37,103 nucleotides of DNA from Halococcus agarilyticus. GTDB lineage: Archaea; Halobacteriota; Halobacteria; Halobacteriales; Halococcaceae. The stretch covers positions 1-37,103 of the forward strand of contig NZ_BAFM01000025.1 in assembly GCF_000334895.1 (NCBI RefSeq), read 5' to 3'. Each line of letters begins with the position of its first letter. The first letter of the stretch is position 1. Both the position numbers and the translations under genes were made by a program. The notes below the pieces were generated by a model, which did not search any database, was not told the origin of the DNA, and saw only the letters and a list, made by a program, of their open reading frames with translations. Shown one piece after another: positions 14,912 to 16,488 of this stretch.

Positions 14912-15325
14912 CTACCCGCGGCGTTCGTCGAGGATCAGCCGGGTCTTGGTGCTCACGACGTCGTCGAGCTCGCGGGCCTGGGTGATCAGCGCGTTGACCG
15001 CGGCCGTATCGGCCGCGTCGACGACGAGCACCACGTCCTGCTCGCCCGAGACCTGCCAGACGAAATCCACCTCGGGCCACTCGGTCATCCGCTTCGAGAC
15101 CGCCGAGGTGTCGACGTCGACCGCGACCCCGACCTCGATCATCGCCTTGATGTTCCCAGTACGGGTGGTCACGGTGAACCGCTCGATGGTGCCGTCCTCG
15201 ACGAGCTGCTCGACGCGGTTTCTGACCGTTCCCTCGGAGGTTCCGACCGCTTCGGCGATTTCGGTGTAGGGCGTCCGGGAGTCCCGTCGGAGGACGTTCA
15301 GGATGCGGCGATCGAGGTCGTCCAT
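14912..15325 (-). CDS. Lrp/AsnC family transcriptional regulator
   Basis: A 137-residue Lrp/AsnC regulator: an N-terminal winged helix (MDDLDRRILNVLRRDSRTPY, with recognition helix around SEGTVRNRVEQLVEDG) and a C-terminal RAM-type alpha/beta domain from about residue 62. These proteins form dimers to octamers and often sense amino acids. It is divergent from carA, with 98 bp between starts. Two near-identical palindromes (15358-15372 and 15410-15424) lie in that gap. The first overlaps the expected promoter of this gene and the second lies between the carA TATA box and its start. I infer autoregulation and control of carA. Confidence 0.9.
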   Translation of the reverse strand: MDDLDRRILNVLRRDSRTPYTEIAEAVGTSEGTVRNRVEQLVEDGTIERFTVTTRTGNIKAMIEVGVAVDVDTSAVSKRMTEWPEVDFVWQVSGEQDVVLVVDAADTAAVNALITQARELDDVVSTKTRLILDERRG

Positions 15326-15357
15326 TCCCGGCTGTACCGATCGCCGGCACTTCACGA

Positions 15358-15372
15358 TTACGAATATCGTAA
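15358..15372. promoter_or_regulatory. Palindromic operator 1 (Lrp/carA intergenic)
   Basis: TTACGAATATCGTAA: perfect 6-bp arms TTACGA/TCGTAA with a 3-bp AT spacer. It lies 33-47 bp upstream of the lrp start, at its likely BRE/TATA region. Confidence 0.7.
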
Positions 15373-15389
15373 CCTTGTTTCGAACACAA

Positions 15390-15398
15390 CGGTTATTA
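15390..15398 (+). promoter_or_regulatory. TATA box of carA
   Basis: CGGTTATTAC, 26-34 bp upstream of the carA ATG at 15424, implies a leaderless transcript. Confidence 0.5.
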
Positions 15399-15409
15399 CG
15401 GGTGCGTCT

Positions 15410-15424
15410 GTACGCATATCGTAA
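15410..15424. promoter_or_regulatory. Palindromic operator 2, overlapping the carA start
   Basis: GTACGCATATCGTAA matches operator 1 at 13 of 15 positions. Centre-to-centre distance is 52 bp, close to five helical turns. It sits downstream of the TATA box and touches the first base of the carA ATG, so a bound protein would block initiation. Confidence 0.7.
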
Positions 15425-16488
15425 TGACGGATGCCTACGTGGCGATCGAGGGCGGCCACGTCCTGACAGGGCGTGCGCGCGCACCGGGCACGGCCCGTGG
15501 CGAACTGGTGTTCACGACCGCCTACACCGGCTACGAGGAGAGCCTGACCGATCCCTCCTACGCCGAGCAGGTGCTCACCTTCTCGTACCCGCTGATCGGC
15601 AACTACGGCGTGCGGGACGAGCGGTTCGAATCCGAGGACGTCCAGCCCACGGCGGTCCTCGCCCGCGAACTCACCGACGACGTGGCCGAGTGGCTCGAAG
15701 CGGAGGGCGTGCCCGCGATCGACCATCTCGATACCCGCGACGTCGTGACCGACGTCCGCGAGGAGGGCGCGATGGAGTGTGGGATCGCCGCCGGCCCCGA
15801 CGCGACTCCCGAGGACGCGCTCGCCGAACTCGACCGGTGCAAGGGGATGAGCGAACACACCGACATCGGCGCGACGGTCAGCGTCGACGAACCCGCACGC
15901 TACGAGGGCGATGGAGCGTACGAGGTCGCGCTGATCGACTGCGGCGCGAAGGGCTCGATCCGGTCGTCGCTTCTCGAACGTGGTGCGGACGTCACCGTGC
16001 TCCCGTACGACGCCACGCCGGAAGACGTCAGGGCGATCGAGCCGGACCTCCTGTTCATCTCGAACGGGCCCGGCGATCCCGAGAACTTCGAGGCCGCCCA
16101 AGGGCTCGTCGAGGAGTTCGCGGGTGAACTCCCGCTTGCGGGCATCTGTCTCGGCCAGCAGATCGTCGCGGCGGCGCTCGGCGGGAGTACCGAGAAGATG
16201 GCGTTCGGCCACCGCGGCGTGAACCAGCCGGTCCGGGACCTCGACTCGGGCCGCGTGGTGATGACGACCCAGAACCACGGCTACACCGTGACCGAGCCCG
16301 GCGACCTCGACGTCACGCAGGTCAACGTCAACGACGACACGCCCGAGGGACTCGCGAGCGACGCGCTCGACGTCATCACCCGCCAGTACCACCCCGAGGC
16401 AAACCCCGGCCCGCACGACTCGCTCGACTTCTTCGACGACGTGCTCGCGATGGCGGATACCCAGCGAGCGGCCCCGACCGCGGACTGA
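15424..16488 (+). CDS. carA: Carbamoyl-phosphate synthase small (glutaminase) subunit CarA
   Basis: CarA hydrolyses glutamine and channels ammonia to CarB for carbamoyl phosphate synthesis (pyrimidines and arginine). The 354-aa sequence has the N-terminal CarA domain (FTTAYTGYEESLTDPSYAEQ, YPLIGNYG) and a class I glutamine amidotransferase domain. The latter has FISNGPGDP, the nucleophile elbow GICLGQQ with the catalytic Cys, and the His-Pro-Glu of QYHPEANPGP. The start at 15424 fits the upstream TATA box. carB is not adjacent: the next gene downstream is an opposite-strand zinc-ribbon protein. An Lrp/AsnC gene is divergent with shared palindromes between. Confidence 0.95.
   Translation: MTDAYVAIEGGHVLTGRARAPGTARGELVFTTAYTGYEESLTDPSYAEQVLTFSYPLIGNYGVRDERFESEDVQPTAVLARELTDDVAEWLEAEGVPAIDHLDTRDVVTDVREEGAMECGIAAGPDATPEDALAELDRCKGMSEHTDIGATVSVDEPARYEGDGAYEVALIDCGAKGSIRSSLLERGADVTVLPYDATPEDVRAIEPDLLFISNGPGDPENFEAAQGLVEEFAGELPLAGICLGQQIVAAALGGSTEKMAFGHRGVNQPVRDLDSGRVVMTTQNHGYTVTEPGDLDVTQVNVNDDTPEGLASDALDVITRQYHPEANPGPHDSLDFFDDVLAMADTQRAAPTAD

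Follow-up and report, generated by a model that had tools for sequence, protein, structure and literature searches.

Conserved, phased Lrp-type sites between lrp and carA in Halococcus agarilyticus and at the unlinked carB promoter

Introduction

The closest described counterpart of the locus studied here is the Trh3 circuit of Halobacterium salinarum. According to the text of Ashworth et al. 2014 (PMC4177876), Trh3 (VNG1816G) is found by ChIP on the trh3, carA and carB promoters, and the promoter shared by trh3 and carA contains two signals that, together with a motif at carB, are described as conserved in 18 species. The same text reports that Trh3 expression is weakly and positively correlated with that of carA (0.45) and carB (0.40) in published arrays. 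Arginine, glutamine and lysine appear as ligands in the part of Plaisier et al. 2014 (PMC4236453) drawn on here, as predictions only.

Beyond this circuit, the sections of PMC2995911 on archaeal Lrp regulators describe dimers that occupy the same face of the DNA at intervals of two or three helical turns and can wrap it. In these sections, LrpA of P. furiosus represses from just downstream of the TATA box and archaeal Lrp activators are positioned just upstream of the BRE. Here, we compare the divergent lrp–carA promoter of Halococcus agarilyticus with these systems. "The window" denotes the whole stretch of DNA analysed (37,103 nucleotides).

Results

Two Lrp-type sites lie in the lrp–carA gap

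In the window, lrp and carA are divergent with a gap of 98 bp between them. The features of the locus are as follows.

14912..15325, minus strand: lrp, Lrp/AsnC family, 137 aa, ATG at 15325, probable Trh3 orthologue
15358..15372, no strand assigned: site A, TTACGAATATCGTAA, putative Lrp operator on the lrp side of the gap
15379..15384, no strand assigned: TTCGAA, BRE-like (CGAAA type), with CGAA kept here in all 47 gaps of the first genome set described below
15393..15398, plus strand: carA TATA box, TTATTA, assigned from the sequence, with TTAT conserved
15410..15424, no strand assigned: site B, GTACGCATATCGTAA, putative Lrp operator in the interval from the carA TATA box to the start codon
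15424..16488, plus strand: carA, carbamoyl phosphate synthase small subunit (Pfam CPSase_sm_chain 1e-33, GATase 3.4e-40)

The lrp product carries the AsnC-type helix-turn-helix (Pfam HTH_AsnC-type, PF13404, 2.5e-18) and the RAM ligand-binding domain (AsnC_trans_reg, PF01037, 5.3e-13) of Lrp/AsnC (FFRP) regulators, both exceeding the cut-off, and its PDB matches are Lrp/AsnC proteins. Its orthologues are 59-98% identical across the order. Based on synteny and this order-wide conservation, the Halococcus protein is the probable counterpart of Trh3.

Sites A and B are identical at 13 of 15 positions, and their centres (15365 and 15417) are 52 bp apart. Re-reading of the sequence showed that the site sequences, coordinates, agreement and centre distance given in the first-pass annotation were all exact. 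The palindromes are imperfect, with 6 of 7 pairs matched in site A and 4 of 7 in site B. Site A appears to overlap the likely TATA region of lrp. The second palindrome had been placed between the carA TATA box and the start codon, touching the ATG, and indeed the last base of site B (15424) is the A of the carA ATG (15424-15426).

To judge the sites against chance, we searched the window for TTACGNATATCGTAA with up to 3 mismatches and obtained 3 strand-hits, all at sites A and B, where 0.41 were expected; none of 100 shuffled window controls reached 3 hits. Across the 3.48-Mb genome, the 13-bp core TACGNATATCGTA has exactly two occurrences, and both are in the lrp–carA gap. As such, the site pair exceeds chance. 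With the degenerate core TWCGNWWNTCGWA, the genome gave 25 strand-hits against 2 for the reversed control. Outside lrp–carA and carB these fall at 19 places, of which 11 are within putative coding frames and the others are not; at the four non-coding loci for which ORFs were listed, no arginine or pyrimidine gene was evident, and we therefore do not claim a wider regulon.

The core promoter elements between the sites agree with the haloarchaeal consensus sequences CGAAA for the BRE and TTWT for the TATA box (PMC4983044). TTCGAA is probably shared back-to-back as the BRE of the lrp and carA promoters, and may also be a half-site located 20 bp from site A. A true third palindrome at this mid-gap position (+20 from site A) was rejected, as its mean score was -15 and the element is just a half-site and also the BRE. 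Measured from its centre, the carA TATA box precedes the A of the start codon by 28.5 bp, a distance that suits a leaderless transcript, so that carA is probably transcribed without a leader, as are 72% of the protein-coding transcripts of Hfx. volcanii (PMC4983044). A conserved ACTT between site A and the start of lrp (window positions 15349-15352; 70-91% per column in 47 gaps) perhaps marks the lrp initiation region.

Both sites and their spacing are conserved in haloarchaea

The first set comprised 47 genomes, including this one, with compact gaps of 96-119 bp. Sites A and B were both found in all 47 gaps, with 52 bp from A to B in 39 of them and 51 bp in the other 8, whereas the distance from lrp to site A ranged from 39 to 61. 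Site A is of the TTACGAAWTTCGTAA type, with a CG-N5-CG core that is invariant in 47/47 gaps, and site B ends on the last base of CGTAA, beside or on the carA start.

In the case of the second set (39 further gaps, left out of the matrix) and the third set (64 compact gaps, newly added from named genomes), A-to-B distances from 44 to 60 were permitted. The distance was 52 bp in 29 and 51 bp in 10 gaps of the second set, and 52 bp in 38 and 51 bp in 26 of the third. Site A was present in every compact gap of both sets, and Haloferax and Haloarcula gaps retain both sites (L254, L202). The only decayed site B among the 150 haloarchaeal gaps was in a Haloquadratum metagenome bin of the third set. 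The first-pass annotation had made conservation of the two palindromes and their spacing the check on its proposal; both palindromes and the 51/52-bp spacing are kept, with an intact site B in 149 of 150 gaps, where phylogenetic sampling is uneven and the gaps do not count as independent events. The conserved sites have the length and phasing expected for Lrp/AsnC regulators, which bind inverted repeats of 13-17 bp in same-face clusters.

The carB promoter carries the same motif in a 20 + 31 bp register

In this genome, carB is unlinked from carA and lies on another contig. Its promoter contains the same motif as three Lrp-type sites, TTTCGATTTTCGAAA, TTGCGCATCTCGTAT and TTACGATGTGCGCAT (L051:1415-1480, contig C2 of G000), with centres 70, 50 and 19 bp upstream of the ATG, so that the spacing is 20 + 31 = 51 bp. 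This 20/51 register was the best one in 45 of 47 lrp-bearing genomes, a few of them with one weak site; the exceptions were G045, with 19 and 50, and G031, with a longer first interval. In the G031 promoter (L098), 41 bp separate the first two sites, exceeding the usual 20 by about two helical turns.

Relative to the TATA box, the carB sites are positioned differently from those of lrp–carA. At carB there are sites upstream of the TATA box and one overlapping it, and the upstream site is about 23 bp from the TATA box, compared with about 30 bp at carA in this genome. Since the total at carB is 51 bp, equal to the distance at lrp–carA, despite this different placement of the TATA box, the spacing appears to be set by the protein and not by the core promoter.

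The sites are absent where the lrp orthologue is absent

Five genomes (G018, G026, G034, G043 and G047) lack an lrp orthologue and have sites at neither carA nor carB, and in G056, which also lacks the orthologue, carA has none. No carA site scored above 6.6 in these six genomes and no carB site above 6.5 in those with carB examined, while the best carB site scored at least 14.6 in every lrp-bearing genome. G026 is a single contig, 98% complete, and keeps 5 Lrp-family matches despite the missing orthologue; its family mates G041 and G052 possess the circuit. In G043, the carA contig continues upstream without lrp, and G029, of the same genus, carries both lrp and the sites. In a further four genomes (G025, G027, G040 and G051), lrp is diverged and unlinked from carA, and both carA and carB are without sites. 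The exception was G017 (77% complete), in which carB sites are retained and lrp and carA were not found, most likely due to missing contigs.

An A-like sequence persists upstream of the diverged, unlinked lrp in G027, G025 and G051 (L056, L055 and L050).

Split loci keep the spacing on the lrp side

In eight loci from Halorubrum and related genomes (L013, L015, L156, L213, L215, L222, L225 and L240), 265-794 bp separate lrp and carA. In all eight, the lrp side holds sites A and B exactly 51 bp apart and the carA TATA stretch between them has decayed. On the carA side, which was read in L013, L015 and L156, the module is intact, so that in these three the promoter module is duplicated. The split loci may descend from one event, but the letters of the spacer have diverged and its length is unchanged. 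Since the lrp side keeps 51 bp after the carA TATA box has decayed, the spacing seems to serve the regulator rather than the carA core promoter.

Discussion

Conservation, co-loss with lrp and the Trh3 ChIP of H. salinarum indicate that sites A and B almost certainly bind the adjacent Lrp. Another Lrp paralogue, or some unrelated regulator, could instead occupy the sites, as the genome encodes several other Lrp-family proteins (7 matches) and the FFRPs of H. salinarum have common targets (PMC4236453). We consider this very improbable, because the sites are gone where the lrp orthologue is gone even though other Lrp proteins stay, as in G026, and because Trh3 itself was located at all three promoters (PMC4177876).

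We think it likely that sites A and B and the carB sites are operators of one Lrp oligomer that controls lrp, carA and carB. Lrp dimers would sit on the 15-bp sites, on the same helix face and five turns apart, within one higher oligomer that would bend or wrap the divergent promoter. With site A occupied, the lrp TATA region would be covered, leading to autoregulation, probably repression, and occupation of site B, in the interval between TATA box and start codon, would block recruitment of RNA polymerase at carA. In trans, the same protein on the three carB sites (20 + 31 bp) would co-regulate both synthase subunits, and an amino acid from the arginine/glutamine/lysine group probably modulates binding. 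Of the cooperative Lrp oligomer proposed in the first-pass annotation, the conserved operators and the same-face ruler (52/51 bp; 20 + 31 at carB) are supported, and we infer the oligomer itself, as we do the direction of regulation and the effector. A bolder form, which we hold only tentatively, is that the Lrp oligomer acts as a rigid ruler whose five-turn span (2 + 3) imposes 51/52 bp at two unlinked promoters and at the split loci independently of core promoter geometry, on a bidirectional promoter where overlapping back-to-back TFB elements would make lrp and carA initiation mutually exclusive.

The spacing might be explained without one oligomer, as a by-product of two back-to-back core promoters with a common BRE, and the interval between sites A and B is indeed full of core promoter elements (the conserved CGAA and TTAT). 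This seems unlikely to us, however, as the split loci hold exactly 51 bp on the lrp side despite a decayed carA TATA box and carB shows the same 51-bp total with its sites placed differently about the TATA box. The direction of regulation is a closer matter. Site B fits the position of a repressor, and site A would fit occlusion of the lrp promoter and the position of a carA activator alike. Lrp could be a dual or activating regulator. Bound at site A, it would recruit TBP and turn carA on, with repression from the distal site confined to high occupancy or a different effector state, as with Ss-LrpB at its own promoter. Since trh3 expression shows a weak positive correlation with carA and carB in published data, this is a serious rival, even if we rate it below even chance; site A also stops a few bp short of the carA BRE on its upstream side, as described for archaeal Lrp activators, and carB has sites upstream of its TATA box and one over it. 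On the other hand, site B lies in a repressor position, touching the ATG, and the distance from the upstream site to the TATA box differs between carA and carB, unlike that of a strictly constrained activator site. We favour autoregulation together with control of carA and carB by a single Lrp oligomer, and consider repression more probable than activation.

These findings would fix how the operators of one pathway-specific archaeal Lrp are laid out, and show how a single regulator can retain control of an enzyme whose two subunits are encoded at unlinked loci. The strict 51/52-bp spacing, together with the natural split loci, makes the idea of an oligomer acting as a ruler directly testable.

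Comparison with known systems

Ss-LrpB of Sulfolobus solfataricus resembles the arrangement proposed for the Halococcus regulator in its same-face cluster of palindromes two or three turns apart and in its autoregulation, and its three dimers wrap about 100 bp, as described in the sections drawn on from PMC2995911. In contrast, its targets there are pyruvate ferredoxin oxidoreductase and permeases, with no amino acid effector found, and we do not claim that the lrp–carA regulator is a member of the Ss-LrpB system. In the case of LrpA from Pyrococcus furiosus, the operator borders the downstream side of the TATA box and blocks recruitment of RNA polymerase, as we propose for site B; the same sections of PMC2995911 describe LrpA at its own promoter, however, and mention no paired divergent target.

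The likeness to the Trh3–carA–carB circuit of H. salinarum, as given in the text of its account, is the closest. In both, an lrp orthologue is divergent from carA, the shared promoter contains two conserved sites and carB carries a conserved motif. As the Trh3 circuit and the effector predictions were already published (PMC4177876, PMC4236453), the Halococcus circuit is a rediscovery, largely described in Halobacterium in 2014. The running text of Ashworth et al. gives no site spacing, three-site carB register, co-loss or split loci. The present analysis adds these to it: the strict 51/52-bp spacing, a 20/31 register of the carB sites, the loss of sites together with lrp, and the split loci.
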